Notes under the pieces: model-generated
Databases searched by the model: none
Told to the model about the DNA's origin: nothing
Seen by the model: the letters and a program-made list of their open reading frames with translations, nothing else
From: Terriglobia bacterium
GTDB taxonomy: Bacteria > Acidobacteriota > Terriglobia > Acidiferrales > UBA7541
DNA length: 43,311 bases
Direction: 5' to 3'
Assembly: GCA_020072765.1 (NCBI GenBank)
Contig: JAIQGD010000009.1
Coordinates: 1-43,311, forward strand
Translations under genes and position numbers: made by a program
In this document: in pieces, positions 11,664 to 31,156 of the stretch
Numbering within the stretch: position 1 is the first letter of the stretch
Layout: every line of letters starts with the position of its first letter

Positions 11664-11681
11664 GCTGGGATGCCTCCCAGC
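11664..11681 (+). terminator. Small hairpin after the PilZ-like gene
   Basis: GCTGGGA and TCCCAGC form a perfect 7-bp stem with loop TGCC, a few bases after the stop codon. There is no T-tract, so this is a tentative call. Confidence 0.3.
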
Positions 11682-11828: not shown

Positions 11829-13412
11829 TCACCGCTTCGGAAGCCCACAGGTGAAATTGGCGGCGTCGGTCGCGTCGCCAGTCCCCTTGTAGATGGCCAC
11901 CTGCGGGTAGGGACACGCGGGATGCGTGCGGTCCACATGGCCCGCGACGCGGTGCGAATTGATGATCTTGTCCGGCGCCACGCCGGTTTCGCGCCATTTT
12001 TGGACCACCTCCATGGCATCGAAGGTCCCGTTATTGTTCATGCCGAAGCCGGGGCACATCCCCATCCCTGGCACCATGAACAAGCGGAAGAAATCGTGCG
12101 TCTGGCTGGGGCCACCCATGGCCGCCAGGGCGCTGTTGTAATAGTCGATGGCGCTGCGCGGGGGAATAATCGCCTCATCCCAGGATTCGTACAGCAGCAG
12201 CTTTCCTCCGCGCGCCTTGAAGGCCTTGAGGTTCGGATCAAACGAGTCCACCAGCGCCCCCACCTTCGACTCGGCCAGGCGCGTATCGCGATCCGCATCG
12301 AACGCGCGAAAGTCCCAGTCCGGGTTTCCGAAGACCATCATCTTGAAGAAACCGGTGCTGATGCTGAGCGGCTCGGGGCCCGCGGCCATCAAGCCCCAGC
12401 CCAACTCGCTGCCCGGATCGAAGCCGGGATAGATGGGCGTGCCGTCGGCGAACTTCGGTCCGGCGTAGATCAGCTTGGCGGTTTCCACCTGGGCCGCGGT
12501 CAGGCAGGAGGCATAGTCCGCCTCGCCGGGGCACTGGATGGTTTTCGGATCAAAGTGGCAGCGCGTGGGGTCCTCGATGAAGCCGTCGCGCACGCCATCC
12601 AGCGCGTCGCAGGCGTCGAGCGCCGCGCGATGGATCACCGGATATTTGCTGGGTGGAATGTAGCCGGGCGCCTTCACTCCGTTCTTGAGGGAGACCCAGG
12701 TGATGTATTCCGAGGCAGCCTGGAGATGGGTGATGCGGTAAGCTGGGTCGCCGGCGGCGATGCCGTCAAAATCCTCGGGATAACGCTGCGCCTCGGTGAG
12801 CGCCTGGTTGCCGCCCTCGTGGCAACTGTTCCAGAAGGATAACTTCGCGGGCTGGCCGTAAAACGCCTGCACCAGCTGCTTGGCCGCGACGGTCGTCTCG
12901 TGGATGGCGCGGTGCCCCCAGTCGGCAATCTTTTCCGGATGACCGATGGCCCAGGTGTCGGGCGCTTCGCTGGTGGCGCCGGCGTCGTTGTGCCCGGTGT
13001 CCGAGGCCGCTGTGGCCGAGCCGCGCGCGATCTCCCGGGTCAAACCCCCGTAGCTGATGGAACCAATGAATCCGGGGTTTCCGATGCCCACGTAGTTCCC
13101 GCTCCAGTTCGCGGCGATGGGGAGCCACACCTCAAAGGAAATATGCGAATCACTGGAGGGCGCCGCGAAGGCCACCACGCGGCAGAACGGCACCGCCACC
13201 TTCAGGCCCGCGGGAGTGCCGAAGCGCCCCGGAGTGCTGGGCACCTCGAAGTCCGGCGGGGTGTGGATGGACGCCGCCAGCGTAATCGTGACGTTCGGTA
13301 TCTTGAGAGACGCCAGACTTTCACACGACTGCTGCGCCGAAGCAGGCGCCGGAACCAGCAGCAAACCCGCCAGCAGAGCCGGAAACAAAAATCGAAGCAG
13401 ATGATGTCTCAT
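11829..13412 (-). CDS. Tannase/feruloyl-esterase-fold secreted protein with replaced catalytic triad
   Basis: The protein has 527 residues. The ATG has GAGGAGG just upstream and opens a classic signal peptide (RHHLLRFLFPALLAGLLLV, A-S-A-Q). The family scaffold is clear: W-x-G-N-Y-V-G-I-G-N-P-G-F, A-A-S-D-T-G-H, G-I-A-A-G-D-P-A, and the calcium-site loop DALDGVRDGFIEDPTRCHFDP. The active site is abnormal. The nucleophile motif C-S-x-G-G reads C-H-E-G-G (His198). The usual H-G-W-A-D of the acid loop reads E-S-W-D-E (Glu413). The catalytic His before the paired Cys (G-H-C) reads G-M-C (Met452). The two cysteines that normally form the disulfide between nucleophile and His (C197, C453) remain. 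It is therefore either a binding protein or an enzyme with different chemistry. Last gene of a leftward four-gene series. Confidence 0.85.
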   Translation of the reverse strand: MRHHLLRFLFPALLAGLLLVPAPASAQQSCESLASLKIPNVTITLAASIHTPPDFEVPSTPGRFGTPAGLKVAVPFCRVVAFAAPSSDSHISFEVWLPIAANWSGNYVGIGNPGFIGSISYGGLTREIARGSATAASDTGHNDAGATSEAPDTWAIGHPEKIADWGHRAIHETTVAAKQLVQAFYGQPAKLSFWNSCHEGGNQALTEAQRYPEDFDGIAAGDPAYRITHLQAASEYITWVSLKNGVKAPGYIPPSKYPVIHRAALDACDALDGVRDGFIEDPTRCHFDPKTIQCPGEADYASCLTAAQVETAKLIYAGPKFADGTPIYPGFDPGSELGWGLMAAGPEPLSISTGFFKMMVFGNPDWDFRAFDADRDTRLAESKVGALVDSFDPNLKAFKARGGKLLLYESWDEAIIPPRSAIDYYNSALAAMGGPSQTHDFFRLFMVPGMGMCPGFGMNNNGTFDAMEVVQKWRETGVAPDKIINSHRVAGHVDRTHPACPYPQVAIYKGTGDATDAANFTCGLPKR

Positions 13413-13527
13413 GAAGATACCTCCTCGTGCGCTGGACTTCTCGTGGGCCACTCCGCTTGCGCCCCGCATCCTACGCCCGGCCCCCTCGGCGCACAAGCGC
13501 AAACGGGCTGCGTCGTAGCAGGCCGGG

Positions 13528-14487
13528 TCAGTAACGGCCCGACCGGCACCATTCGATGAACGCGCCGACACCGCGCTGCAAATCGCAGGGCTCGAATCCG
13601 AACTCCTCGCGGTAGCGCTCCATGGGCACGTCGTGAATCGGGCGCGCGGCCGGCATCGCCGGACCCAGCGAGATCTGGGCCTGGGGCAAATGGGCCTTCA
13701 CGGCGTCGGCAAACTCCTGCATCGAGGAGGTCCGCGTGTTCATGAGGTTATAGATGTAATGCCGGGGCTGCGCGGCCTGGTGGACCAGCGCGGTGGCCAC
13801 GCCGACGTCCTTCGCATACACCATCGGAAAGCTCAGATTCGCGGGAACCTTCGGCAACTCGGTGCGCTGCCCGGCCAGAGCCCCGGCCACCATCGCGTAA
13901 AACGAGTCCGAGCCGCGCGAGGAGGCCGGGCCGTACACCAGGCCGACGCGCAGGCTGACGAAACTCATTCCGTACGTTTTGGCGTAGAGCAACGCGATCT
14001 GCTCGCACGCCTTCTTGGTATTGGAGATCGGCGCGAACGTCACCGTGGGCAGGTACGCGTCTTCATGCCAATCCTCGGGCTGCCCCGGCAAAGCGTCGTA
14101 GTTGCTGCCCGAGCTGATGAAGGTGACGCGGCGCAAGCCATGCAGCCGGGCGGCCTCGAAGATGTTCACCGACCCATTGACCTGCACATCCACGAGATGG
14201 TGCAGGCTGTTATCAGCCACGGTGTAGGGCCCGCCCGCCAGGTCGGTGCTCGCAAAGGCGCCGTGCACGATGCTATCCACGCCGTGCTTCTTGACCAGGC
14301 CGAGCAGAAACGGCAGGTCCTGCACCGTCCCGACTTCCTGCACGATGTGGCTATCCCAGTAATCTTTCAGCAGCGGCGGGCAGGAAATGGCGCGGCGCTG
14401 CATGATCAGAACCTTTTCGCCGCGCTCGGCCAGACAGCGGGCCATATGCTGCCCGAGAAATCCACCGCCACCGGTCAGAAGTATCAT
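13528..14487 (-). CDS. NAD(P)-dependent epimerase/dehydratase (extended SDR) lacking the catalytic Tyr
   Basis: The protein has 319 residues, normal for extended SDRs. The nucleotide site TGGGGFLGQH (G-x-x-G-x-x-G) is intact, and GSVNIFEAARLHGLRRVTFISSGSNY matches the strand leading to the catalytic Ser/Thr. In family members the next motif is P-Y-x-x-x-K; here it reads PISNTKKACE, so the proton-donating Tyr is replaced by Ile154 while Lys158 and the following Glu remain. RVGLVYGP and the C-terminal substrate region are conserved. It may bind NAD(P) without the usual oxidation step, or use Tyr130 from the nearby SNYD. Sixteen bases separate it from the M24-fold gene upstream, so the two are very likely co-transcribed. 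Confidence 0.85.
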   Translation of the reverse strand: MILLTGGGGFLGQHMARCLAERGEKVLIMQRRAISCPPLLKDYWDSHIVQEVGTVQDLPFLLGLVKKHGVDSIVHGAFASTDLAGGPYTVADNSLHHLVDVQVNGSVNIFEAARLHGLRRVTFISSGSNYDALPGQPEDWHEDAYLPTVTFAPISNTKKACEQIALLYAKTYGMSFVSLRVGLVYGPASSRGSDSFYAMVAGALAGQRTELPKVPANLSFPMVYAKDVGVATALVHQAAQPRHYIYNLMNTRTSSMQEFADAVKAHLPQAQISLGPAMPAARPIHDVPMERYREEFGFEPCDLQRGVGAFIEWCRSGRY

Positions 14488-14503
14488 GGCTTTCTCTTTC
14501 GCC

Positions 14504-15802
14504 TCAATCGACCATCACCAGACACTGCCGGGATTTGTTCAGCAGCAGGGGTTCGCCAGCGGTGCACATGACCGTGTTGCCCAGGCCGTGGCCCACGAAT
14601 TTGCCGGGCTCGGTGTGATGAATCCACGGCATGAGAATGAATCCGATCCCCGGCTCCAGGTCCACGGAGGGGTGTTCGAACGATCGTTCGAAATCGAGGG
14701 TCTGGCAGGCGAAATGCGATCCCAGTTTTCCGCCGCTGAGTTGCGGGGCCAACTTCTCACCCAGCTGGTCAATCTCGCGGTTGTTGGCGCCGGGACGGAA
14801 GGCCTCGAACTGCGCGGCGTAGATCGCCCGGTTGACCTCGAGGAATTGCAGGAAGTCCTTGTGGGGCGCCGATCCCAGCCAGACCGGCACGGCGAGTTGC
14901 GTGCAGTAGCCCTTGTACGACGCGGTCAGCTCATTGAGAAAGACCTCGCCCCGTTGCAGCTTCCTCCCGGTGCCCAGACTCAGCAGGCCCAGCGTGGGCC
15001 ACTTGCCCGAGCCCAGCAGTTGAAAACCTCCTGGGTTGCAACCGGCCAGGACCGCGGCGTTGTCCGCCGCGAGATAGAGTTCGCGTTCGGTCACCCCGGG
15101 GCGCACGGCGTCCAGCAGCGCCTCCATGGCCTTATCCGCGCAATAGCCGGAGCGGCGGTAGAATTTGATTTCTTCGGCGCTCTTGACCAGCCGCACCTCA
15201 TTCATCAGATCATCGGCGTCCACGAACTTCGCATGCGGCACTTCCTTCTGCAGTTCGCGCAAGGCGTTGGCCGGAAACACGCGCTCGATGGCCAGACCGA
15301 CCGTTTTCCCGTCGAACCCCAGCTCCTTGACCTTCTTCGCGACAAAAGGCTCGAAATACGCGCCGTTCCCCGTGCCCGGCTTGAGCGGCGTGCCTTCCAG
15401 CGCGATAGGAGCAGTGGGTGATAGCCCGCGCTGGCTGAACACACCCTGCTTGTAGAAAACGACGGGATCTCCCTGCAGCGGGAACACTGCGAACCACGGC
15501 TCCAGCCAGATATCCAGGCCCGTGACGTAGCGCAGATTGGCTTGCTCGCCGTTGAACCAGCCGGTGTTGCCGGTGACCACCAGGCATGCCAGCCCGCGCT
15601 TGTCCATCGCCGCGCGCATCTGTTCATAGCGCCGCAGGTACTCGCCGCGCGAAAACGTCAGGTCGCCGGCAATATCCTTGTCGAGCGTGACGCCTTTCTT
15701 GCGATAGTCCCGGCGGGACATCACAGCGTCCATTGCGTGGCGGGATGAAATGGAAGTTGCACGGCGCGCTCGCTGCTTTCTCAGTCGCTTTTTACCGGCC
15801 AT
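14504..15802 (-). CDS. M24-fold (aminopeptidase P/creatinase-like) protein without the metal site
   Basis: The protein has 432 residues. The start is set by GGAGGAG nine bases upstream; a long open region upstream of it is not protein-like. The N-terminal creatinase domain (about 50-205) and C-terminal pita-bread domain (about 210-432) are both recognisable (E-I-x-x-x-R-x-x-G-x-x-A-D-K-A, R-P-G-V-T-E-R-E-L, L-E-P-G). M24 peptidases bind two metals with D, D, H, E, E. Here the aligned positions are Glu291, Gln302, His363, Met391 and Gly408, so a dinuclear metal centre is unlikely. Creatinase is a known metal-free member that keeps a catalytic His, as this protein does, but it also keeps the EP-motif Glu that is Met here. 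The substrate is therefore unknown. Second gene of the four-gene series. Confidence 0.82.
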   Translation of the reverse strand: MAGKKRLRKQRARRATSISSRHAMDAVMSRRDYRKKGVTLDKDIAGDLTFSRGEYLRRYEQMRAAMDKRGLACLVVTGNTGWFNGEQANLRYVTGLDIWLEPWFAVFPLQGDPVVFYKQGVFSQRGLSPTAPIALEGTPLKPGTGNGAYFEPFVAKKVKELGFDGKTVGLAIERVFPANALRELQKEVPHAKFVDADDLMNEVRLVKSAEEIKFYRRSGYCADKAMEALLDAVRPGVTERELYLAADNAAVLAGCNPGGFQLLGSGKWPTLGLLSLGTGRKLQRGEVFLNELTASYKGYCTQLAVPVWLGSAPHKDFLQFLEVNRAIYAAQFEAFRPGANNREIDQLGEKLAPQLSGGKLGSHFACQTLDFERSFEHPSVDLEPGIGFILMPWIHHTEPGKFVGHGLGNTVMCTAGEPLLLNKSRQCLVMVD

Positions 15803-15855
15803 CGTTGCTTCTCCTCCGGGCGCCATTCGAATCGCGAACGGGCCCCCGCACTGCC

Positions 15856-16440
15856 TTACTTCAAGCGCGCTTCCAGCATCGCTCGCAGCTCCTGGAGAGT
15901 CGCATGGCGCCAGCTGGCAGCGTGCTCCCAGGTCACTTCGGTCAGCCGGGCGATGGCCGCCTGGCGCTCGGGAGTGCCCTCCGGGGCCGCCTTCATGGCG
16001 GCGATGAAGGGCGCCAGCAACTCCGCGGCCATCTTCGGCCTCTCGATCCAGTGACAAAGATACTGGTGGTGGCGGTCGTAAAAGACCACCACCGGAATCG
16101 AGGCGGACTTACCGTTCTTGAGAAACTCATTCATGAGGTCCATGTTCTTGTCGCGGAAGAACAGGCGGATTTCCATCCCCGTCCGCTCGGCGATCTTCGC
16201 GACCACGGGGAGACCCCGCCAGACATCGGGGCACCAGTGCTCTCCCAGGACCAGCGCCTTCAGGCCGTGCTTCTCCACCAGAGCCTGGAGCGCGGCGAGG
16301 TCTTCGGCCTGCGGGACGTACTCATCGTAGTGGCGCTGAAATTCCGCGTGGCGCTCGGGAATCGCCGCCATCCACTCGCGGAACGAACCCAGGCCCGTCT
16401 GGAAGCGTTCGGGAGTTACCACCGATGAACCCGTGATCAT
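15856..16440 (-). CDS. Thioredoxin-fold protein with a single-Cys active site
   Basis: The protein has 194 residues from the ATG preceded by AGAGGG. It resembles the Thioredoxin_9-type group: a helical N-terminal half, then KALVLGEHWCPDVWRGLPVVAKIAE, a strand with FFRDKN, the cis-proline loop SIPVVVF (Pro116) and a C-terminal helix. The usual W-C-x-x-C or W-C-x-D-C redox pair reads W-C-P-D-V, so only Cys70 remains and disulfide exchange would need a partner cysteine. No signal peptide is visible. It is the first gene of the leftward series (thioredoxin-like, M24-fold, SDR, tannase-like) and divergent from the GAF-phosphorylase gene, 282 bp away. Confidence 0.78.
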   Translation of the reverse strand: MITGSSVVTPERFQTGLGSFREWMAAIPERHAEFQRHYDEYVPQAEDLAALQALVEKHGLKALVLGEHWCPDVWRGLPVVAKIAERTGMEIRLFFRDKNMDLMNEFLKNGKSASIPVVVFYDRHHQYLCHWIERPKMAAELLAPFIAAMKAAPEGTPERQAAIARLTEVTWEHAASWRHATLQELRAMLEARLK

Positions 16441-16722: not shown

Positions 16723-19383
16723 ATGAGTGACCCCGCTTCCGTACACGATGCCAGCCACGTCCTGACCCACGAGGAAATCGCGAACCTGAGAGAAGAGGGC
16801 GGCAAGCTCGCCGAGACTCTGATGAACGTCGTGGCGCTGATTGCCAAACGTTTCCGGACAGACGTCTGTTCGGTCTACTTGCTCGAACCCGATCGCACCA
16901 CGCTGGTGCTGGCCGCGACAGTCGGCCTGCGCGCCGAATGCGTCGGCACGTTGCGCATGACGATCCACGAAGGCCTGACGGGCCTGGTGGCCGAGCAGGT
17001 GCTCCCGCTCGCCGTGCGGTACGTGAAATCCCATCCGCGCTTCAAGTACTTCAAGGAGGCCTCCGAGGATATCTACGAAACGTTCCTCGGGGTGCCGCTG
17101 ATCGACCGTGGGGTGCTGCAAGGCGTCCTCGTGGTGCAGACCATCGAGCCGCGCGTGTTTCGCGACGACGAAATCCACATGCTGGTGGAAGCCGCCGCGC
17201 AGGTCGCTCCCGTCGTGAGCGAGGCCCGCACGCTCGATCGCTTCATCGCGCCCATTGAAGAGCGGCTCTGGTCGCTGGCCCGCAACCTGTGGTGGAGCTG
17301 GGACCACGACTCCGCCAACTTGTTCCTGGATCTCGACCCCGCCCGCTGGCGCACGCTCAATCACAACCCCATCTCGCTGCTGGCGAAGACGCCGCTCGAG
17401 GATATGGAGCGCCGCGCCGAAGAAATGGTCTTGCACAGCCGGATCAACTACGCCTACCGCCGCCTGGGTGAGTATCTGGGAAACGACCGGACCTGGGGCG
17501 CCCGGCACGCCGGTGTTTTGGGGGCGCGTCCGGTGGCGTATTTCTCGGCGGAATTCGGATTGCACGAGTCGCTCCCGATCTATTCCGGCGGCTTGGGCGT
17601 CCTCGCGGGCGACCACATCAAGAGCGCCTCCGACCTGGGCATTCCCCTGGTCGGCGTCGGCTTGTTTTACGGCCAAGGATATTTCCGGCAATGGCTCGAT
17701 CGAAACGGCTGGCAACAGGAGGAGTACCGCCAAACCGATGTGGATGAGCTACCCATGGAACCAGCCATCGGGACCAACGGCGAACCGGTGAAAGTGCAGA
17801 TCGAAACGCGCGGCGAGCTGATTCGCGCCAAAGTCTGGCGCGTGAAAGTGGGCCGCTGCGACCTGCTTCTGCTGGACTCCAACGTCGAAGGAAACGCTCC
17901 CGAGGATCGCGACCTCACCTCGCGGCTGTACGGCGGGGACCAGCGCGTCCGCATCCGCCAGGAGCTCCTGCTCGGCATCGGCGGCTTCCGCGCGCTGAAG
18001 GCCATGGGTATCACGCCCGGCGTGCTCCACCTGAACGAAGGCCACAGCGCTTTCGTGGTGCTCGAAGCGGCGCGCCATCGCATGGAGGAGGAGGGCCTGA
18101 ACTTCGACGTGGCCGCGCCGCGCGTTTCCCGCGAGGTCGTCTTCACCACGCACACGCCCGTGGCCGCGGGCCACGACCGCTTCGGCGCCGAGCTGATCGA
18201 GGAGCATCTCGGGCCGCTCCGCGAGACGCTCGGTCTTTCGCACGACAGCCTCATGGGACTCGGGCGCGAAAATCCCAACGATTATCAGGAAGGTTTTTCG
18301 ATGACCGTGCTGGGCCTGCGGCTGTCGCGGCGCGCCAACGCGGTTTCGGCGCTGCACGGCGAGGCCTCCCGGGCCATGTGGAAGGGCCTCGCTCCCGGCG
18401 GGCCCGCGGACACCATTTCCATCGGGCACATCACCAACGGCGTGCACGTCCCGTCGTGGCTTTCGCCGCAGATGTTCCGCCTCTACGACCGCCACCTGGG
18501 AACGGGCTGGCACGAGCACAGCAGCGACGCCAAAATCTGGGAAGGCATCGAGAACGTCGACGACGGCGAGCTGTGGGAAACCCACGTCAGCTTGAAATTG
18601 CAGCTGCTCGAATTTGTGCGCCGCCGCGCCGTGAAACAGGCGGAACGCCGCCGCGAATCCCCTGAGGTCCTCCAACGACTCGGCCGCATGCTCACGCCTG
18701 ATGCGCTCACCATCGGGTTTGCGCGCCGCTTCGCCACCTACAAGAGAGCCAATCTCATCCTGGAGGACATCGACCGGCTGGCCTCCATGGTCAACGATCC
18801 CAAGCGCCCCATCCAGTTCGTTTTTGCCGGCAAGGCCCACCCGCTCGACGAGCCTGGCAAACGTGTCCTGCAGCAGATCGCCGAGTTCATGCGCGACCCG
18901 CGCTTTGCCGATAAGTTCGCCTTCGTCGAGGATTACGACATCAACGTCGGGCGCCATCTCGTGCAGGGTGTGGATGTCTGGCTGAATAATCCCCGCCGGC
19001 CCCTGGAAGCCTCCGGCACCAGCGGCCAGAAGGTGGTGTTGAACGGCGGCTTGAATCTCTCCGTCCTCGACGGCTGGTGGGCGGAAGCCTACGACGGGCT
19101 CAACGGCTTCGCCATCGGAACCGGGCGGACGCATTCGGACCTGCGCGCCCACGACCTGCGCGACGCCGAGGATCTCTACCGCGTGCTGCGCGACGAAGTC
19201 ATCCCGCTCTACTACCAGCGCGACCGCGACGGCCTGCCGCGCGGCTGGATCAAGCGCATGAAGCGAACCATTCGCACCCTCGGCTGGCGCTTCAACGCCG
19301 ACCGCATGGTCATGGACTACACGCAGAAGTGCTACGTCCCCGCGGCGGGCGGCACCTCCAGCGACATGTCTCCCACGGTATAA
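16723..19383 (+). CDS. glgP: GAF domain fused to alpha-glucan (glycogen) phosphorylase
   Basis: The protein has 886 residues. Residues about 20-170 form a GAF domain close to that of PtsP (RFRTDVCSVYLLEPDRTTLVLAATVGL, GLTGLVAEQ, FLGVPLIDRGVLQGVLVVQT). Residues about 176-870 are a GT35 phosphorylase of the short Thermotoga/archaeal type (EERLWSLARNLWWSWD, VAYFSAEFGLHESLPIYSGGLGVLAGDH, HLNEGHSAF, GFARRFATYKRANLI). The PLP lysine is Lys770 in SGQKVVLNGG, inside EASGTSGxK. The enzyme releases glucose-1-phosphate from alpha-glucans in the cytoplasm. Short phosphorylases lack the usual allosteric sites, so the GAF domain is a likely new regulatory input, perhaps a small ligand or nitrogen/PTS signal by analogy with PtsP. 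The ATG is at the beginning of the GAF reading frame with no gap, so the fusion is real in this sequence. Confidence 0.92.
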   Translation: MSDPASVHDASHVLTHEEIANLREEGGKLAETLMNVVALIAKRFRTDVCSVYLLEPDRTTLVLAATVGLRAECVGTLRMTIHEGLTGLVAEQVLPLAVRYVKSHPRFKYFKEASEDIYETFLGVPLIDRGVLQGVLVVQTIEPRVFRDDEIHMLVEAAAQVAPVVSEARTLDRFIAPIEERLWSLARNLWWSWDHDSANLFLDLDPARWRTLNHNPISLLAKTPLEDMERRAEEMVLHSRINYAYRRLGEYLGNDRTWGARHAGVLGARPVAYFSAEFGLHESLPIYSGGLGVLAGDHIKSASDLGIPLVGVGLFYGQGYFRQWLDRNGWQQEEYRQTDVDELPMEPAIGTNGEPVKVQIETRGELIRAKVWRVKVGRCDLLLLDSNVEGNAPEDRDLTSRLYGGDQRVRIRQELLLGIGGFRALKAMGITPGVLHLNEGHSAFVVLEAARHRMEEEGLNFDVAAPRVSREVVFTTHTPVAAGHDRFGAELIEEHLGPLRETLGLSHDSLMGLGRENPNDYQEGFSMTVLGLRLSRRANAVSALHGEASRAMWKGLAPGGPADTISIGHITNGVHVPSWLSPQMFRLYDRHLGTGWHEHSSDAKIWEGIENVDDGELWETHVSLKLQLLEFVRRRAVKQAERRRESPEVLQRLGRMLTPDALTIGFARRFATYKRANLILEDIDRLASMVNDPKRPIQFVFAGKAHPLDEPGKRVLQQIAEFMRDPRFADKFAFVEDYDINVGRHLVQGVDVWLNNPRRPLEASGTSGQKVVLNGGLNLSVLDGWWAEAYDGLNGFAIGTGRTHSDLRAHDLRDAEDLYRVLRDEVIPLYYQRDRDGLPRGWIKRMKRTIRTLGWRFNADRMVMDYTQKCYVPAAGGTSSDMSPTV

Positions 19384-20192: not shown

Positions 20193-20636
20193 TCAATCGG
20201 CCGAAACCGCCGTGGGATGCGTGAAGCGCTGCTTCACTTCGTCCGGGATGGGCTGGCTCTTGAACGTCACCGGGCCTTCGCCGGCCACGCGCGTCACCCA
20301 GACGCGCTTTTCGAAAATCTCCAGGCCGAGGACGCCGTCGGGCCGGAAGACTTGGTGCTGGACCGTGAAGCTGCTGCGCCCCCATTCGGTGATGGAGGTT
20401 TCGTAGACGACCTCGTCGCCGAAATCCGACGGGATGATGAACCGCGCGCGCAAATCCACCAGGGGGACGCCAATAATATTGTAGGTCTTGAGCATCACCG
20501 GCTTGAACAGCCCGGCTTTCGCGAACAACGCGTTCGTGCAGGCGTCTCCGTACTCGAGGTAGCGCGGGAAGAACACGGTTCCGGCCGCGTCGCAATCTCC
20601 CCACTCGATTTGAATCCGCCGTTGGTTCGTCAACAT
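20193..20636 (-). CDS. 4-hydroxybenzoyl-CoA-type acyl-CoA thioesterase (hotdog fold)
   Basis: The protein has 147 residues with a single hotdog domain. The N-terminal IEWGDCDAAGTVFFPRYLEYGD carries the catalytic Asp of the 4-hydroxybenzoyl-CoA thioesterase/YbgC group (usually W-x-D-x-D-x-x-G-x-x-Y/F). Next come the long helix ACTNALFAKAG and the strands LVDLRARFIIPSDFGDEVVYETSITEWGRSSFTVQHQVF. These enzymes hydrolyse aromatic or short acyl-CoA esters in the cytoplasm. AGGGAG precedes the ATG. The next gene upstream on the same strand is a feruloyl-CoA-synthase-type ligase, 241 bp away across a palindromic repeat; ligase plus thioesterase suggests aromatic acyl-CoA metabolism. The natural substrate is not known. 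Confidence 0.85.
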   Translation of the reverse strand: MLTNQRRIQIEWGDCDAAGTVFFPRYLEYGDACTNALFAKAGLFKPVMLKTYNIIGVPLVDLRARFIIPSDFGDEVVYETSITEWGRSSFTVQHQVFRPDGVLGLEIFEKRVWVTRVAGEGPVTFKSQPIPDEVKQRFTHPTAVSAD

Positions 20637-20720
20637 GCTGTAACTCTCCCTTCCAGGGGTTCAAGATGCCGTGCCAATGAATCTCGCCATTAACCGGTTG
20701 CCGAAAAACCCACCACCATG

Positions 20721-20850
20721 TCATTCCGAACCCCGGTCGCAGTTTGACCGGGGTGAGGAATCTGCTTTTTGCTTGAGGTTGGTGCGAAAAGCAGATCCCT
20801 CGTTCCGCAAAACCATCCGGAACGCAAACAACGCGCTCCGCTCGGGATGA
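20721..20850. repeat. Palindromic dispersed-type repeat element
   Basis: About 130 bp of nested inverted repeats between two genes. The ends are TCATTCCG and CGGGATGA. Inner arms at 20755-20772 (GAGGAATCTGCTTTTTGC) and 20784-20801 (GCGAAAAGCAGATCCCTC) pair with two mismatches. A separate perfect 9-bp hairpin (ACCCCGGTC/GACCGGGGT) lies at 20730-20754. The wording (cattccgaac, gaggaatctgct, gggatgacacg) is like the repeats scattered through many acidobacterial genomes whose chance translation gives VIPSGAR. I cannot confirm other copies from one window. Confidence 0.6.
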
Positions 20851-20877
20851 CACGCAAACAACTTTTTCCACAAACCA

Positions 20878-22752
20878 TTAGATGCTGAGCCGCCGGCCGG
20901 ACGCTTCCGGCGCGTAGAGTTCCTCGACCAGATCGGCGCGCCGCTCCAGCACGGCGCGCTGATTCAGCGAACCTTTGTCCGTCACCTCGCCCTCGTCCAG
21001 CGAGGGCGGCTCCTCCACCAGAATGGCGCGCACCACGCGGTTCGAACTTCCCGTGGCCTCCTTCGCCAAACCGCGGAGCAGCGATTGAAAATGCGCCCGC
21101 ACAGCCTCGTGGCGGAAAACGGTTTCCGGCGCGGCATCCTTGGGCAGCTCCGGGGCCAGCGCACGGCAGGCGTCCGAGTCGGCAAAGATCAGGATGGAGA
21201 TGAAGTCCCGGTCGTGCCCGGCGATCACCGCGTCGCGGACCAGCGGCGCGAGCGCCGCCAAAATGTTCGCGCGCAAAGGGCCGACGCTGACCCAGGTGCC
21301 GTTCCCCAGCTTGAAATCCTCGGTCAACCGCCCGTCAAACAGCAGCCCTTTGTTCACGTCCTCCGGATCGACGAATCGCACGGCGTCGCCGAACGAATAA
21401 AATCCCTCCTCGTCGAACACGTTGCGCGTCAATTCCGGCTGGCGCCAGTAGCCTGGGGTGACGTTCGGCCCGCGCACGCGCGCCTCCAGCTTGTCGCCGC
21501 ACGGCACCAGCTTCAACTCCACCCCCGGCACGGGAATCCCGATCGTTCCCGCCCGGTCAGTCTCCCAGGTAGTCTGGATCGCCATGGGCGAGGTTTCCGT
21601 CGAGCCCAGCCCCGTGGCCATAATGATGCGCTCGCCGCAGGTCTCGTAAGCCAGCTGGCGGTAGGCGTCCCAGACCGGCTGCGAAAGCCCCGCCCCGGCG
21701 TAGAACATCAGCCCGAGACGGCGGAAGAAAGTTTTGCACAGCTCGCGATCGGCGCGCAGGAAGGGCAGCAGATCGTCATAGCCCTTGGGCACGTTCAGGT
21801 AGATGGTGTTGGAAATTTCGCGCAGATTGCGCACCGTCTTCTCAATCGAACCCGGGCCGGGCTTGCCGTCGTCAATGTAAAACGTCCCGCCGTGATACAC
21901 GCACACGCCCACGTCGTGATTGCCGCCGAAGACATGGTTCCACGGCAGCCAGTCCACCAGGACGGGCGGCTCGTCCTCCATAAATCGAAACACTTGCGCG
22001 ATCATCTGCTGGTTGCTGCAAATCATCCGGTGCGTGGTAATCACACCCTTGGGGACGCCGGTCGAGCCCGAGGTAAACAGGAATTTCGCGGGACTGTCCG
22101 GGTCGATGCGCTGATGGGCCGCCTCGACCGCCGGGGTCACCTTGGTTTCCAGCAGGTCGGCAAACAGGCTGGTCTTGCGGCGGTCCGGGGGCGCCGCCGT
22201 GGCCACCACTTCGACGTGCTCGCCCACCACGGCTTCCAGGGCGCGGGCGTAACGCGTGCCGTCGGCGACAAACACCATGCCCGGCGTGAGAATGTTTAGC
22301 GTATGGCGCAGCTTGCTAAAATCCTTGGAAATGAGCGAATACGGGGGCGAGATGGGCGCCGTGGGAATGCCCACATGCTGGCCGGCCATGGTCAGCAGGA
22401 AGTGCTCGAAATCATTCTCGGAAAGAATCGCCACCGGCCGCTCGACGGAAAGGCCGCGGTCCAGCAAGGCCTGGCCGATGCTCTGGATCGACTCCCACGC
22501 CTGGCCGTAAGTGAGATTGCGCCATGCGCCGTCGGCCCCTCCGCGCTTGGCCATGCACACGCGCTCCGGAGCCACCGTGGCCCAATGCCGCAGCCGGTCG
22601 GTCAGCACCTTGATGTAGGGCCGCAGCGCTTCCTCGGCCTTGATCAGGATGACGCCCCCGGGAAGCCGCTGCATGGTCGCCCCCGACGTGCGCAGGCGCA
22701 CCTGGCGGACCCCCGTAGCGCTCTTCTGCTGTGGATGACTGCCGCTGGTCAT
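20878..22752 (-). CDS. Feruloyl-CoA synthase-type AMP-dependent ligase
   Basis: The protein has 624 residues. ANL superfamily motifs are intact: FTSGSTGVPKGVITTHRM (A3), the Asn/His-rich DWLPWNHVFGGNHD, TGLGSTETSP (A5) and GYWRQPELT. The C-terminal phrase GEVTDKGSLNQRAVLERRADLVEELY is typical of the feruloyl-CoA synthase (Fcs) subgroup, as is the N-terminal GGVILIKAEEALRPYIKVLTDRLRHWA. Such enzymes activate ferulate, other hydroxycinnamates or benzoate-like acids to CoA esters with ATP. The chosen ATG has GGAGGA immediately upstream; a longer reading frame is less likely. A hotdog thioesterase lies downstream. Exact acid unknown; benzoate or cinnamate derivatives are most plausible. Confidence 0.85.
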   Translation of the reverse strand: MTSGSHPQQKSATGVRQVRLRTSGATMQRLPGGVILIKAEEALRPYIKVLTDRLRHWATVAPERVCMAKRGGADGAWRNLTYGQAWESIQSIGQALLDRGLSVERPVAILSENDFEHFLLTMAGQHVGIPTAPISPPYSLISKDFSKLRHTLNILTPGMVFVADGTRYARALEAVVGEHVEVVATAAPPDRRKTSLFADLLETKVTPAVEAAHQRIDPDSPAKFLFTSGSTGVPKGVITTHRMICSNQQMIAQVFRFMEDEPPVLVDWLPWNHVFGGNHDVGVCVYHGGTFYIDDGKPGPGSIEKTVRNLREISNTIYLNVPKGYDDLLPFLRADRELCKTFFRRLGLMFYAGAGLSQPVWDAYRQLAYETCGERIIMATGLGSTETSPMAIQTTWETDRAGTIGIPVPGVELKLVPCGDKLEARVRGPNVTPGYWRQPELTRNVFDEEGFYSFGDAVRFVDPEDVNKGLLFDGRLTEDFKLGNGTWVSVGPLRANILAALAPLVRDAVIAGHDRDFISILIFADSDACRALAPELPKDAAPETVFRHEAVRAHFQSLLRGLAKEATGSSNRVVRAILVEEPPSLDEGEVTDKGSLNQRAVLERRADLVEELYAPEASGRRLSI

Positions 22753-22887
22753 CTTCCTCCGCCTGCTTTTCGCTGGCGCGCTTCGAAACACTCCGCGAAC
22801 GATCGTGGAGTTATTTTACGGGAGCCCCGTACCCCCGTCAATTCTAATGCGGTACCACAATGCCTTAATTCCCGGACCTCGAGGCCC

Positions 22888-23568
22888 TCACCCGCCCTTC
22901 GCCGCCAGATAGGCGCGCAAATCATCCGCCTGCACGGTCCAGCCGAAGAAGGATTCCACGTTGAACAGCGTGGCCTCGTACAGGTTGCGGCCCCCCGCCG
23001 CCATGGTTCCGTCGGCCAGCAGGATCGGCCAGTAATCGAGGAAATAGGCGTCGCGCAGCGTCGACTCCACGCAGACGTTGGCGGCAATGCCCGCGAAAAT
23101 AAGATACTGAATGCCGCGCACGCGCAATTGCGAATCCAGCGTCGTCCCGGCAAAACCGCTGTAGCGCGTCTTGGTGACCACCAGGTCGCCCGGCTGCGGC
23201 GCCAACTCGTCCACGATGGCGAAATCCCAGCCCCCTTCGGTCAACAGCTTGCCCTTCAGCTCCGGCCGGGCGTTCATCAGGCACATGGCCGTCTCTTTGT
23301 AATAGTTGGGGGAGCGCGGGCCGCCGGCGTTGCTCAGGTCCGGCTTGTACCCCACCTGGACGTGGACGATCGGCACTCCCGCCGCGCGCGCTGCATCCAT
23401 TACCCCGCGGATCGTCCGCACCACCGCCGGAGCGCCCGACAGATCGGCGCCCGCCAGATCCAGCGTCCCGCCCTTGCTGGCAAAGGCGTTCTGCATGTCC
23501 ACAATCACCAGCGCCGCGCGCTCCAGCGCAATATCAATCGGCTCGGGTCGGGCGTTCAGTTTCGGCAT
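22888..23568 (-). CDS. Isochorismatase-fold cysteine hydrolase, RutB-like
   Basis: The protein has 226 residues, and the ATG is preceded by AGGA. The catalytic triad of the family is complete: Asp24 in ALVIVDMQNAF, Lys133 in VTKTRYSGF, and Cys166 in GIAANVCVEST; the cis-peptide preceding the Cys is also in place. The wording over the whole length (GGPRSPNYYKE, WDFAIVDELAPQPGD, LFNVESFFGW) is close to RutB, which hydrolyses ureidoacrylate during pyrimidine breakdown, and to related amidases. No other rut genes are visible, so an amidase on a different carbamoyl or ureido substrate is as likely. The neighbouring leftward ligase gene starts 136 bp downstream. Confidence 0.85.
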   Translation of the reverse strand: MPKLNARPEPIDIALERAALVIVDMQNAFASKGGTLDLAGADLSGAPAVVRTIRGVMDAARAAGVPIVHVQVGYKPDLSNAGGPRSPNYYKETAMCLMNARPELKGKLLTEGGWDFAIVDELAPQPGDLVVTKTRYSGFAGTTLDSQLRVRGIQYLIFAGIAANVCVESTLRDAYFLDYWPILLADGTMAAGGRNLYEATLFNVESFFGWTVQADDLRAYLAAKGG

Positions 23569-23848
23569 GCTCTTCCTTCGCGGGCCCGGCGCGAGTTGTC
23601 CGGCATCGGCCGGACAACGATGAAGCGGTTTCCGCTCGGGGCGCGCCTGGTACGGTCTCCTGGAGTCTGGACCCTGAACGATCTCGGGAACATCTTCGGC
23701 AGGATTGGAAACTACCACGCCCGCCGCATTCCGCAGGGTCAATTTAGGCCGGGAGAATACTACAACCACACAGGTGATGCAATCCGGCGAGGAAAGTCCC
23801 CTGGGGAAAGACGCTTCCAGCCCGGCGCAATGCGGGCGGGAATCGCCG

Positions 23849-25417
23849 CTATTTCTCGCGGGGGTGAATCTGGACCAACGCCGAGCCGTGGGCCGCGGCC
23901 GCGGCTGCCTTCCCCACACCGGGAGACCCTGTCTGCGATGCTGGGCGATCGGCACTTCGCGCCGGCAGGACAAACGGAGGCGGCGGGTTCTCCGGGCGGC
24001 TATCGCGCTTGAGAAACAGGTTGATCCACGAACTGGTTCCCTTGAGCGAAAGATTCCGGGGCGGAATCACCACCCGCAAGTCGTCCACGCGCCCGGCGGC
24101 TTTGGCGCGTTCGTACACATCGTTCCAAATGCAACGCTGGTCCACCACTTCGCATTTGCCGTCGAGCGTGAGCGTGCCGCCGCACGGCCCGTTGCGCATC
24201 CCCTTCGGGCACGTCTGCGGGCAGACGTATTCCATCAGCCCCAGCACACAATTGCCGCAGGCCTGGCATCCGAACAGCGGCGCCTTGACGGCAAATTCCA
24301 GCCGCTCCAGGCTCTGGGCCGCGCCCGGCCGCTTGTCAATCCAGCTGCAAACCGCCGCCAGGGCGCTTTGCAGCTTGCTCTCTTTTTTCACCGGAAACAT
24401 GCGCCCCAGCGTGTCCAAAATGCGCGGCACCCACTTCCGCGGCGGCGGCGCGCTGGCCGGAGTTTCGTAGACGAAGAAACCGCCCTTGGGCGCGAAGGTC
24501 ATCTCCTCGGCGCACTGTTCCCACTGCGGAGCCAGGGCTTCGGAACGGCGAATGATCCAGCGCACGTGATCGGCGCGATGATCGCCGCCCAGATACGCCC
24601 CGGCGTAGCCGAGCCCGCGGAGAATGGCCACCAGCCGGGCGGCGCGTTCCAGCCGCGCGGCCTGGCCCTTGTCCGCCGCCTTGGCCTCCTCCCGAACTTT
24701 CTCCAGCAGCTCCGGAGAGACCCAGCAACCCGGCGGCTTTCCCTTGGCCATCCCTTCGGCCTGTTTGGGAGGAAGCACATAGGCGCTGCCCAGAATGGGG
24801 ATGCGCAGATTGCGTTCGTCCAGATAGCGCTTCAGCTCGGCGTACTTGCGGGCGTCAAAACCGAGCTGCGTGATGGCCCAGTTCGCGCCGGCGGCAATCT
24901 TCTTTTCCAGCTTCAGATACTGATAGGCGCAGTCGGCTTCCGTGTATTTGAATGGCGACACCGCCGCGGCGATCCAGAACTTCATGCCCCCCTGCCGCAT
25001 CTCTGCGATCAAGGAAATCAGCTGGACGGAATCGAGGGCGAAGTGTTGCGCCGGCTGATCGGAGGAGCCGGCCTTGGGATAATCCCCGGAGAGCGCGAAA
25101 ACATTTTCCAGGCCCAGGGCATGCAGGTCCTGCAGCGCGCTGCGCGCGCTGGCGCGGTCCCGGCCCACGCACGTCAGGTGAATGTTGGGGGTAAGCCCCC
25201 GCGCGCGCGCCGCCGTCCCCACGCGAATCGGGTCGTGCCCCATCGAGCCGCCGGCGTAACTGGTGATGCTCCCGGCCACCACGCCGGGCACCTGCGCCAG
25301 TTGCGAGGCCACCTCCAACAGCTTGGCTTCGCGGGTCAGGGCGCTGGCCACCAGCTCGACGACGTAGCAGAACTTCCCGCTGGTCAGCGCCTCCCGCAGG
25401 GGATTCGATGCGGCCAT
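23849..25417 (-). CDS. metF: Methylenetetrahydrofolate reductase with MetV-like Cys-rich C-terminal domain
   Basis: The protein has 522 residues. Residues about 10-305 are an MTHFR TIM barrel (VVELVASA, THxxG-like ITSYAGGSMGHDP, NVFALSGDYP, FWIAAAVSPFK, ANWAITQLGFDA). Residues about 370-455 are the MTHFR C-terminal/MetV-type domain, with cysteines at 384, 387, 390, 399, 403, 412, 422 and 429 in a C-x2-C-x2-C plus CPKGMRNGPCGG arrangement that binds metal, probably zinc or Fe-S. In acetogens MetV is a separate subunit; here it is joined to MetF. The last 70 residues are low-complexity. The ATG lies one base after the stop of the MetE gene (TGA-A-ATG), so the pair is coupled. It supplies methyl-THF; the electron donor is uncertain. 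Confidence 0.88.
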   Translation of the reverse strand: MAASNPLREALTSGKFCYVVELVASALTREAKLLEVASQLAQVPGVVAGSITSYAGGSMGHDPIRVGTAARARGLTPNIHLTCVGRDRASARSALQDLHALGLENVFALSGDYPKAGSSDQPAQHFALDSVQLISLIAEMRQGGMKFWIAAAVSPFKYTEADCAYQYLKLEKKIAAGANWAITQLGFDARKYAELKRYLDERNLRIPILGSAYVLPPKQAEGMAKGKPPGCWVSPELLEKVREEAKAADKGQAARLERAARLVAILRGLGYAGAYLGGDHRADHVRWIIRRSEALAPQWEQCAEEMTFAPKGGFFVYETPASAPPPRKWVPRILDTLGRMFPVKKESKLQSALAAVCSWIDKRPGAAQSLERLEFAVKAPLFGCQACGNCVLGLMEYVCPQTCPKGMRNGPCGGTLTLDGKCEVVDQRCIWNDVYERAKAAGRVDDLRVVIPPRNLSLKGTSSWINLFLKRDSRPENPPPPFVLPARSADRPASQTGSPGVGKAAAAAAHGSALVQIHPREK

Positions 25418-25418
25418 T

Positions 25419-26420
25419 TCAGCGTCCCAGCTCCTGCCGCACGATCTTCGCCCCCTGCACCATGGCGCGCAGCTTGGCAAACGCCACGTTCCGCGGCAGA
25501 TGGAACAGCCCGCAATCGGGGAGGACCAACATCCGCTCGGGAGGAATCACCTGGGCGGCTTTGCGGATCCGCGCCGCCACGATATCCGGCGTCTCGATAT
25601 CCTCGGTCTTGACGTCAATCACGCCCACGCCCAATTCAAACGGCGCGGGAAACTTCCGGAACAGCTCCAGGTCCTCGCCGCCACGCCGCGCGAATTCCAG
25701 GGACAGCTGCTGCACCTTCGCGTCCAGAATCCGCGGGAACAGGTACTGGTAGCTGCCCGCCCAGGACGGCTTGCCGTAGCGGTTGCCGTAGCAGACGTGC
25801 AGGGCGATGCGGGCCTCCACGCCTTCCACCAGCGTGTTCAGGACACCCACGCCCCAGGACAAATCCTCGGGAAAACCCGAGTAGTACGGCTCGTCGATTT
25901 GAATGAACTTGGCCCCCGCCTTCACCAGATCCTTCAGTTCCAGGTTCAGCACGCGGGCGATGTCGGTGGCCAGCGCTTCCTCGCTGGGATAGAACTTGTT
26001 GCGGATGCGCTTGGTCAGCGAATGCGGGCCGGTGATGCAGATCTTGGTTTCGCGCTCGGTGTTCTCGCGCAAGAACCGGAAATCCGCCGCCAGGCCCAGC
26101 GACGCCATGGGAATCTTCCCCACCACCTCGCTGTCGTAAAAATCGTAGTAAAACTTCTTCGAGCCGCGATCGATCTGCACCCCGGGCAGCCGCTCGATGA
26201 AGTAATCGATCATGTTGTCCCGGCGCAGCTCTCCATCCGTGATGATGTCCAGGCCGGCAATCTCCTGATCCTTGATGGCCGCCTTCACCACCGTGTCGTG
26301 AATCTCGTCGAGTTCCTGCCGGCTGATCCGCCGGGCAAAATACTCGGTCTTGAGCCGCTCCAGCCAGCTGGGCATCGAGTAGCTGCCCACCACCGTCGTC
26401 GGAAGAATCGGAAGAGTCAT
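25419..26420 (-). CDS. Core-type cobalamin-independent methionine synthase (short MetE)
   Basis: The protein has 333 residues and corresponds only to the catalytic C-terminal barrel of MetE (about 750 residues). Zinc ligands are present: His208 and Cys210 in ALHVCYG, a Glu in LEFAR (about 242), and Cys303 in VLPDCGLFHLP. The substrate motif QIDEPYYSGFP and the opening TTVVGSYSMP are also there. Full-length MetE needs its N-terminal half to bind methyl-THF triglutamate, so short forms such as the archaeal and Mes families use other methyl donors. This gene directly precedes and is coupled to the MTHFR gene, and is five bases after a methyltransferase-like gene. The donor may be methyl-THF through a partner or a corrinoid protein, not determined here. 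Confidence 0.88.
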   Translation of the reverse strand: MTLPILPTTVVGSYSMPSWLERLKTEYFARRISRQELDEIHDTVVKAAIKDQEIAGLDIITDGELRRDNMIDYFIERLPGVQIDRGSKKFYYDFYDSEVVGKIPMASLGLAADFRFLRENTERETKICITGPHSLTKRIRNKFYPSEEALATDIARVLNLELKDLVKAGAKFIQIDEPYYSGFPEDLSWGVGVLNTLVEGVEARIALHVCYGNRYGKPSWAGSYQYLFPRILDAKVQQLSLEFARRGGEDLELFRKFPAPFELGVGVIDVKTEDIETPDIVAARIRKAAQVIPPERMLVLPDCGLFHLPRNVAFAKLRAMVQGAKIVRQELGR

Positions 26421-26425
26421 TGGTC

Positions 26426-27877
26426 TTACTCCCGCTGTGTCGTGTAGAGGACCGAAGTCCGGGACCCGGGCCGATAGTGGAACGGCGCGAAATGGACGTC
26501 GTAGCCGGCCCGCTCGGCCACCTCGCGCAACAGTGTGCCATTGACCCAGTTCACAATCGAGCCTTCCAGCTTCCCGGGCCCATGGAACCCCATCGAATAT
26601 TCGTTGAGATCCGTGACGAAAATATCCTGGACCTGCAGGTAACCCCTCGGGTGCAGCAACGGCAAGGTATTGCGAAAGCTTTCCAGCGCGCCGGAACTCA
26701 GGTGAAACCGCAAATCGCTGGGCGCGTTCCGCAGAATCTCCTCCAACTGCGAGGAACTCAGTTCCGCCGGGAAGGGAGATTCCCGCAGGTCCTCCAGATT
26801 CACGATGCGCTCCTCCAGACGGAGCGACGCCCAGACTTCCTGCCAGAACTTCGCGCCCTGGCTGGCATCCGCCAAGCATTCGGGCCCCACATCGAGCAGG
26901 CGCGTCACCGTCTTGGCCACTTCCGCCGCCGGCACCTCGCACAGCTGGGCAATCCGCGCCACGTCGGCCACCGGCAGGTAGGCGCGCACCTGCACCCAGT
27001 AAATCCGCCCGTCGCGCCGCACGATTTCCTCGTCCGGCAGGTTGTCGTACATGTTGCTGGCATGGACGTGCAGGATTTTGTGGCGCAAAAAGGAAAGCGT
27101 GCGGATGGGATCGAGCGCATCCAGCGCGATAAAACTGCACAGATCCAGATGCATGCGCACCGCGGGCCGCGACCGCTCCAGCGTCGTCAGCGAGTAATCC
27201 CCCAGCAGAAACCGCAGCCGGGGATAAAAGTTCGTGCTGCGTTCGTGGTCCAGATCGAGAAAACGGTCCAGCCACAGGCCCGCCCGCGTTCCCATCCCCA
27301 CGCCCATCTCCAGGACAAAGATCTCCTCCGGCAATTGCTTCCGGCTCTCCATGTCCTTCAGCAGCGTCCAGAAATCCGCCACCGTATCCGAGATCGCCTG
27401 CGGATTATGCCCGTCGGACTGCCCGCCCGGCAGCGCCTGCTCGTACTCCCGGCCGGTCGCCTGCTCCCACTCCTTCAAGCGATACCAGTAGAGCCGGTTG
27501 AATTCCCACGCGATGCTCTTGCGAAATGAGCAGAACTCCTCCAGGTACAGCCGGTCCTGGCCCGCGCGCCGCTCCGCGGTGGCCGGGCTCAGCGCCCGTT
27601 GCACCGGCTCGCGCAGCGAACCCGGCGCCACCTGCCGCCCGTCAATGCGAATCTCCAGCGGAAGCGCGGTGCCGTCCCGGTCCTCGGGCGCGCGCATCAC
27701 CGTCACGGCCTCGCGAAAGTTCTGCCGGTACTGGATCCAATCCAGATGAATCTGCAGGCGGGCGAATTGCGCGGCATCGAGCTGCCCCTCCTCCAGCAAC
27801 GACAGAAGCGTTCCCACCACCTCGCTGGTGGCCGGGACGGCCGAATCGCGCCGCGTATGATTCAAATGCAGGATCAT
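26426..27877 (-). CDS. MidA-like SAM-dependent methyltransferase
   Basis: About 483 residues. The SAM-binding motif reads IFVLEMGVGMGTRAGLWLDRFL, and LRFLLGDYSLTTLERSRP gives the strand-2 region; HVHASNMYDNLP follows. This combination is like MidA/NDUFAF7-type (Methyltransf_28) proteins, which methylate an arginine in a complex-I subunit in mitochondria. I place the start at an ATG giving MILHLNHTRRD; a TTG 60 bases upstream is also possible. Neither has a strong ribosome site. It is the first gene of a tight leftward unit (methyltransferase, core MetE, MTHFR), with only five bases to the MetE gene. A link to methionine or SAM supply is inferred from position only; its target is unknown. Confidence 0.7.
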   Translation of the reverse strand: MILHLNHTRRDSAVPATSEVVGTLLSLLEEGQLDAAQFARLQIHLDWIQYRQNFREAVTVMRAPEDRDGTALPLEIRIDGRQVAPGSLREPVQRALSPATAERRAGQDRLYLEEFCSFRKSIAWEFNRLYWYRLKEWEQATGREYEQALPGGQSDGHNPQAISDTVADFWTLLKDMESRKQLPEEIFVLEMGVGMGTRAGLWLDRFLDLDHERSTNFYPRLRFLLGDYSLTTLERSRPAVRMHLDLCSFIALDALDPIRTLSFLRHKILHVHASNMYDNLPDEEIVRRDGRIYWVQVRAYLPVADVARIAQLCEVPAAEVAKTVTRLLDVGPECLADASQGAKFWQEVWASLRLEERIVNLEDLRESPFPAELSSSQLEEILRNAPSDLRFHLSSGALESFRNTLPLLHPRGYLQVQDIFVTDLNEYSMGFHGPGKLEGSIVNWVNGTLLREVAERAGYDVHFAPFHYRPGSRTSVLYTTQRE

Positions 27878-28080
27878 CGGTTGAGCCCAGAGATGCCTGT
27901 CTTCGCCCCGGATCAGGCCGGTTGCCGCCGCCCCCAAAAAGTACAGAAGCTTAGCCTATTCCTCGCCTTCCGTCAGCAAAATCTCCTCGGGTGGGAGAGC
28001 CTCCTCGCATCGGATCCCCTTGGCGAAGTTGAAATGCATCCGTCCGAAGCGGCAGGAGGAGATGGCCGCCCGGCCGATAC

Positions 28081-28413
28081 TTACAGCTTTCCCCAAAAAG
28101 CGAACGCCACCGCGCCCACCAGAAACAGGAACGACACGGCATGATTCCATTTGATGCCTTCACCCAGATACGACCACGCGAAGACGACGAACACGCAGAG
28201 CGTGATCACTTCCTGGATGATTTTCAACTGAAACGCCGTAAATTCCCCGTAACCGATGCGGTTCGCCGGGACTTGAAAACAGTATTCCGCGAACGCGATC
28301 AGCCAGCTCACCACGATGGTAGCGAAAAGCGGAGCCTTGCGGTATTTCAGATGGCCGTACCAGGCAGTGGTCATGAAGATGTTGGAACAAACCAGAAGCA
28401 GGATGGTTTTCAT
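28081..28413 (-). CDS. DMT-family (DUF486) small membrane protein
   Basis: The protein has 110 residues with four hydrophobic segments: ILLLVCSNIFMTTAWYGHL, LFATIVVSWLIAFAEYCFQV, LKIIQEVITLCVFVVFAWSYL and HAVSFLFLVGAVAFAFWG. The phrases WLIAFAEYCFQVPANRIGYG and LKIIQEVITL are the hallmark of the DUF486 family, a group distantly related to drug/metabolite transporters. GAGGA lies just before the ATG. The length is typical of the family. No role or substrate has been established; it is usually found as an isolated gene, as here. Confidence 0.88.
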   Translation of the reverse strand: MKTILLLVCSNIFMTTAWYGHLKYRKAPLFATIVVSWLIAFAEYCFQVPANRIGYGEFTAFQLKIIQEVITLCVFVVFAWSYLGEGIKWNHAVSFLFLVGAVAFAFWGKL

Positions 28414-28578
28414 GGGTCCTCAAATCGTATCACGGCCGAGATAACGAGGTTGGTACAGCAACGATCCGCCCGGTCAGGGCTCTGGCGATGGCCGAATCGC
28501 CACCCGGCCGGAAGGAACTGGCTGCTGAAATGCATCCTTCCCTCCGATGCATCCAATCGGGCCGCCATCCATGCGCGC

Positions 28579-28818
28579 TCAGCAGCAGCGGGAGACGCTG
28601 GAATAGCGGCGGCGCAGCGCGTCGAGATAGAACTCGGCGGGCGACAGCAGGGCCGGCGCCGCATCCCCTGCGACCCCGGAAAGCGCCTCCCGGCGGGCGC
28701 AGCGCAGGTAATTTTCATACGCGGCATCGCCGCTCACCTGCCGCAGCCAGGACCACGCGCGCCGCGCACGGATACCGAGCGGCTGCCACCCTCGCGCGAT
28801 CGTATCGAAGACGTTCAT
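28579..28818 (-). CDS. YbdD/YjiX-family small protein
   Basis: The protein has 79 residues. WSWLRQVSGDAAYENYLRCARRE is the family pattern, followed by SPAEFYLDALRRRYS and the typical ending in paired cysteines (RCC). This family almost always follows a CstA-type transporter, and that holds here: its ATG is five bases after the stop of the cstA-like gene, with AGAGG across the junction. The family is thought to help CstA/BtsT work in the uptake of pyruvate or peptides, but no mechanism is known. The relative order and the tiny gap make the assignment confident. Confidence 0.85.
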   Translation of the reverse strand: MNVFDTIARGWQPLGIRARRAWSWLRQVSGDAAYENYLRCARREALSGVAGDAAPALLSPAEFYLDALRRRYSSVSRCC

Positions 28819-28823
28819 GTCCT

Positions 28824-30887: not shown

Positions 30888-30969
30888 GATTTGGCCGCCC
30901 GATGCCCGCGCATCCTACGCAATGCGCAAGGCAGCGTCAACCGTGCGGTGGGCTGCGGCCCCCAGTCGG

Positions 30970-31149: not shown

Positions 31150-31156
31150 GGGGACA

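Follow-up and report, generated by a model that had tools for sequence, protein, structure and literature searches.

We analysed four neighbouring minus-strand genes within a 43,311-nucleotide stretch of soil-bacterium DNA (Terriglobia bacterium, contig JAIQGD010000009.1, positions 1 to 43,311; the window hereafter), which encode a thioredoxin-like protein (TRX), an M24-fold protein (M24), an extended short-chain dehydrogenase/reductase (SDR) and a tannase-fold protein (TAN). An initial annotation had proposed that these form a joint, undescribed system or a set of four pseudoenzymes. We consider it likely that no such four-gene system exists, and that the window instead holds a TRX-M24-SDR trio beside an independent, genus-typical tannase with a wholly remodelled active site; the changes in TRX, M24 and SDR were found to be subfamily traits, and the gene order was not conserved. 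The order TRX-M24-SDR-TAN was confirmed, with gaps of 53, 16 and 115 bp, and all Pfam matches (Thioredoxin_9, Peptidase_M24 with Creatinase_N, Epimerase and Tannase, respectively) were above cut-off. The four genes are as follows.

15856-16440, minus strand: TRX, Thioredoxin_9 (PF14595, 98.7 bits, cut-off 25), with the motif WCPDV
14504-15802, minus strand: M24, creatinase/DoeA-like pita-bread protein (PF00557 and PF01321), without the dinuclear metal ligands
13528-14487, minus strand: SDR, extended SDR or epimerase-like protein (PF01370, 6e-26), with TGGGGFLG, Ile for the catalytic Tyr, and the Lys kept
11829-13412, minus strand (ATG at 13412): TAN, tannase/feruloyl-esterase fold, 527 amino acids (PF07519, 340.7 bits, cut-off 29.8)

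Third-position guanine-plus-cytosine (GC) content was high in all four, as in the flanking genes, and they therefore look like real genes with native composition. The host probably belongs to Candidatus Acidoferrales (Acidobacteriota), as tannase matches with identical coordinates turned up in genomes of the same genus and in named metagenome-assembled genomes from this group.

The triad of the tannase-family structure 6G21 consists of S169, D381 and H421, with a disulfide between C168 and C422 and an oxyanion Gly at G91 (PMC6461665). In an alignment with 6G21 and FoFaeC these residues correspond in TAN to H198, E413 and M452, to C197/C453, and to G114. TAN consequently lacks the Ser-Asp-His triad of PF07519, and the motifs C197-H198 ... 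E413 ... M452-C453 replace CS-D-HC, so that the His, Glu and Met reported for the tannase in the initial annotation stood in full. Counted from the ATG at 13412, the three codons, with their counts among the 21 tannases that share the His-for-Ser change (H-type), lie at the following positions.

12819-12821, minus strand: His198 codon, nucleophile elbow (canonical Ser), His in 21/21 (CAC 18, CAT 3)
12174-12176, minus strand: Glu413 codon (canonical Asp), Glu in 20/21 (GAG 13, GAA 7)
12057-12059, minus strand: Met452 codon (canonical His), adjoining the retained Cys453, Met in 19/21

Other parts of the site were retained. Both cysteines of the CS-D-HC pattern (C197 and C453) were present in all 21 H-type members, with a predicted bond between them, and the oxyanion-hole Gly (G114) in 20 of the 21. 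TAN also carries the lid motif DALDGVRDG, which we take to be calcium-binding as in known structures, and its N-terminus is signal-peptide-like. An AlphaFold model built with 21 sequences had a mean predicted local distance difference test score (pLDDT) of 83.8 and a predicted template modelling score (pTM) of 0.85. The model gave VIA Z scores of ~41 to feruloyl esterases and ~33 to MHETase, with Foldseek in agreement, and matched 8BHH with a VIA Z of 41.7 over 481 residues (root-mean-square deviation 2.5).

The 21 H-type sequences formed a monophyletic group (support 0.997) in a tree of 35 sequences, with canonical Ser-Asp-His tannases of the same genus as sister. This clade comprises Candidatus Acidoferrales and two gammaproteobacteria; a class-level search and a genome scan recovered H-type tannases in the genus of the window and in two gammaproteobacterial metagenome-assembled genomes (MAGs), the genome scan having used two exact peptides, so that it may have missed H-type relatives of greater divergence. 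The canonical relatives had Ser, Asp and His in 14/14 each. Given the near-invariance of His, Glu and Met within the clade, chance is excluded as the source of the residue changes. Pairwise omega values were 0.06-0.19, indicating purifying selection, and both synonymous codons were used for His as well as for Glu; these residues are therefore held by selection and not by recent ancestry. The stop flagged inside L011, a canonical tannase of the same genus, proved to be an ordinary terminal stop.

Fourteen sites were fixed differently between the H clade and its canonical sister group. Six of the changes fall inside the active-site motifs (G196S, S198H, T199E, K202N, D413E and H452M), Asn202 being present in 21/21 clade members, while of those elsewhere G113P adjoins the Gly of the oxyanion hole, with A222D and N225Y lying a short way past the elbow. 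Two tandem arrangements of H-type tannases were also observed, one in an acidobacterial MAG (L066, 8001-11372) and one gammaproteobacterial (L079, 7959-11155), in which the second copy reads SCHNGG and has diverged further, lacking both the Glu and the Met. We found no description of a tannase-family pseudoenzyme or of a His-for-Ser variant among the open-access papers listed by a literature search, which is weak evidence.

At 5 of the 15 acidobacterial H-type loci the tannase has a cytochrome c homologue no more than 1.5 kb away, with a quinoprotein dehydrogenase also present at 2 of these, while in L077 both genes were found ~2.4 kb away. The H-type loci near cytochrome c are thus L065, L071, L073, L074, L075 and L077, three of which also have quinoprotein dehydrogenases of the pyrroloquinoline quinone (PQQ) type. 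None of 13 canonical tannase loci, mostly examined within 1.5-kb flanks, had a cytochrome c neighbour (Fisher p 0.044, a value that is indicative only because the loci are related). The L075 quinoproteins were above the cut-off for the PQQ-dependent methanol/ethanol dehydrogenase family and scored best, yet below cut-off, for "acido-empty-quinoprotein group A". Neighbours in the gammaproteobacterial L079 included an FAD-linked oxidase, an AMP-dependent ligase and a canonical tannase.

We favour a remodelled, functional periplasmic site over decay, since the new residues are invariant, numerous and clustered. On this view TAN belongs to a conserved clade of tannase-fold proteins, putatively exported, in which the entire active site was rebuilt, with the oxyanion Gly, C197/C453 and the lid calcium motif kept. 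His198 would sit on the nucleophile elbow, where Glu413, one methylene longer than Asp, could reach it, a contact that may have opened up through the replacement of the canonical His by Met. The resulting His-Glu pair might serve as general base in a reaction on a phenolic or ester-like periplasmic substrate, perhaps beside a cytochrome c/quinoprotein oxidation module in some lineages; at a minimum, TAN would bind such a substrate. Catalysis of some kind appears somewhat ahead of pure binding, and our confidence in any particular reaction is low.

Two other explanations of the tannase residues were weighed against this one. A misalignment, with the canonical catalytic residues sitting at shifted positions, might be suspected from Asp412 just before Glu413 in the window copy and from the invariant Ser196 two residues before His198. 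However, position 412 is variable (D7/Q7/E5/N2), Ser196 stands for the small elbow residue Gly, and the alignment is anchored by C197, G200 and C453. In alpha/beta hydrolases the side chain of this small elbow residue normally faces away from the pocket. Both Asp412 and Ser196 were rejected as displaced catalytic residues, there was no conserved shifted Asp or His, and we regard misalignment as very improbable. A true pseudoenzyme, i.e. a periplasmic protein for binding or scaffolding in which the aromatic-ester pocket persists but no chemistry takes place, is a substantial possibility, though it falls short of an even chance. All three triad residues are replaced, and a binding protein would be expected to retain, as TAN does, the fold, the disulfide cysteines and the lid calcium motif; yet the replacements are specific and show no drift (His, Glu and Asn202 above all), and the fixation of A222D and N225Y along with the triad changes argues for a selected function, with which binding is still compatible. 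A more novel version of the catalytic proposal, a new catalytic type in the alpha/beta-hydrolase fold that is exported, uses the elbow His and Glu413 (perhaps with Asp222/Tyr225) to act on phenolic or lignin-derived compounds by non-serine chemistry and is coupled in some lineages to periplasmic quinoprotein/cytochrome c, is tentative, and we think it rather unlikely.

The remaining three proteins gave a different picture, in that the residues singled out by the initial annotation were largely correct but did not set the proteins apart from their relatives. WCPDV in TRX was confirmed by alignment, without this amounting to a loss of WCxxC, since WC[GPS]DV is the usual Thioredoxin_9 motif in this phylum. 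TRX belongs to this family by its profile score and its WCxD motif. WC[GS]DV was observed in 7/7 TRX homologues of the same genus or family. A phylum-wide set of 30 Thioredoxin_9 loci, TRX itself among them, carried WC[GPH]D[AVSG] except for three divergent loci with CSDS, and WCxxC was present in 0/30. A second Cys is present elsewhere in the wider family, as in the solved relative PA1234 (WCPDC). Judged by these alignments, WCPDV is a normal family motif in the phylum and no departure.

The metal ligands of M24 had been listed as E,Q,H,M,G in place of D,D,H,E,E. Alignment to the nearest relatives confirmed E291, Q302, M391 and G408, but the ligand His aligned to Q367, so that M24 reads E,Q,Q,M,G and lacks the five-ligand set of an M24 metallopeptidase. 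Among its relatives the same positions read E,Q,W,E,G (Haladaptatus, L048), E,P,Y,M,T (DoeA, L051) and E,P,Y,H,S (L050), and on this comparison the ligand changes are ordinary within the nearest, DoeA-like subfamily. The best NCBIfam match was ectoine hydrolase DoeA with 82.8 bits, below the equivalog cut-off of 613, and the closest structures in the PDB include 6TWJ/6TWK (DoeA) and 1CHM (creatinase). Creatinase works without metal. As both of these nearest families are working enzymes, a ligand-free site in M24 does not mean a dead protein.

SDR has the Gly-rich nucleotide-binding motif of extended SDRs (N-terminal TGGGGFLG) and IxxxK in place of YxxxK. The reported Ile at the catalytic Tyr was thus confirmed, with the Lys kept, but it is a trait common to the nearest relatives: Ile and Lys also occur in L058, L059 and L061, the three best-scoring full-length relatives in the small sample aligned, while SDRs from the same genome that are less closely related retain the Tyr.

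A joint system would be expected to keep its gene order and altered residues together, and this was negative in everything searched. No close relative of M24 was found in 60 relatives, in 395 other genomes of the phylum (E<=1e-40) or in plasmids, nor was any confirmed by a peptide-pattern search of the genome collection; no SDR relatives were found at 1e-28 in 385 other genomes of the phylum. These negative results hold for the genomes sampled and the thresholds used. Homologues of M24, SDR and TRX were observed in the flanks of 0 of 17 separately fetched tannase loci, and synteny between the window and these loci was limited to the tannase, plus weak similarity to an acyl-CoA synthetase. With M24 and SDR relatives not found and tannase loci lacking the other three genes, the four-gene arrangement is peculiar to this genome among everything examined. 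The TRX-M24-SDR trio may be one transcription unit, and is apparently a compact unit peculiar to this genome that was possibly acquired horizontally. The most parsimonious view is that an unusual tannase lies by coincidence next to three proteins that are ordinary for their subfamilies.

The competing explanation is that the four genes form one pathway operon, with the repurposed folds working one after another, for example to degrade an aromatic that is lignin-derived or amidated. The shared strand and short gaps speak for it, and aromatic catabolism nearby is plausible, given the lignostilbene-dioxygenase-like gene, PRK12582 acyl-CoA synthetase, thioesterase and methyl-tetrahydrofolate genes of the window. 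Against it, the order TRX-M24-SDR-TAN is conserved nowhere found, TAN lies 115 bp off with its own ribosome-binding region and is solitary elsewhere, and the active-site changes in TRX, M24 and SDR are shared with their subfamilies. We therefore hold a single operon to be improbable.

Our preferred reading of a trio beside an independent, remodelled tannase has several points to its disadvantage. Horizontal transfer of the trio is argued from patchy presence only, and its codon-position GC looks native. The 115-bp gap between SDR and TAN is compatible with co-transcription of all four genes. The gammaproteobacterial tandem copy at L079 9587-11152 keeps the His and has Ser/Gly at the other two positions, and the Glu/Met pair is therefore not strictly required in the clade. 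TAN in the window has no cytochrome or quinoprotein neighbour, the aromatic-catabolism-like genes lying further along the contig, and a binding-only role of TAN fits the same conservation.

Searches upstream of TAN for a sigma-70-like promoter found none, and a search for a shared leader or promoter in relatives aligned the ribosome-binding region alone. Further features of the window are listed below; the run at 20196-32937 resembles aromatic catabolism, possibly of lignin-derived aromatics with methyl-group transfer.

11664-11681, minus strand: possible intrinsic terminator 3' of TAN with a 7-bp stem, a consensus match only and no commoner than in shuffles
16723-19383: carbohydrate phosphorylase that carries DUF3417 and, at its N-terminus, a GAF domain
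20196-32937, minus strand: gene run comprising, besides the dioxygenase-like gene listed next, CstA, a MetE-like protein, MTHFR with DUF5981, a PRK12582 acyl-CoA synthetase (809 bits, cut-off 777) and a 4HBT thioesterase
31477-32937, minus strand: lignostilbene-dioxygenase-like protein (537 bits, cut-off 800)

Three of the four apparently lost active sites illustrate how textbook motifs can mislead, as odd-looking residues may be the norm of a subfamily. The tannase clade offers a clean natural experiment, with the whole triad swapped, held by selection in two phyla, and canonical sisters in the same genus. It is well suited to testing whether the pocket of a serine hydrolase can be turned to different chemistry or to binding, and the family concerned includes esterases of plant polymers and of plastic monomers. 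Current annotation would name the clade tannases or feruloyl esterases, which is probably wrong with respect to activity.

Compared with known systems, TRX shares WCxD with Thioredoxin_9 (PF14595) and is otherwise ordinary, apart from Pro for the usual Gly (WCPD). M24 shares the pita-bread fold of DoeA (6TWJ/6TWK) and creatinase (1CHM) and, like the aligned DoeA rows, lacks the dinuclear ligands and carries Glu at the first ligand position; it differs from DoeA in its ~25% identity and in scoring far below the equivalog level. SDR resembles the actinobacterial extended SDRs L058, L059 and L061 in its Ile-Lys pair, with ~30% identity over the full length, but these occur in other gene contexts. 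TAN matches the PF07519 enzymes AoFaeB (3WMT), 6G21, FoFaeC (6FAT) and MHETase (6QG9) over the entire fold (VIA Z 33-42) and has their lid, calcium motif, oxyanion Gly and Cys pair, but differs from them by His-Glu-Met for Ser-Asp-His, by ~28-31% identity and by fixed changes round the pocket. The canonical tannases of the same genus (L030-L039), its sister clade, are closer at 53-58% identity, but retain GCSTGG, HGWxD and GMxHC and differ from TAN at the 14 fixed sites.

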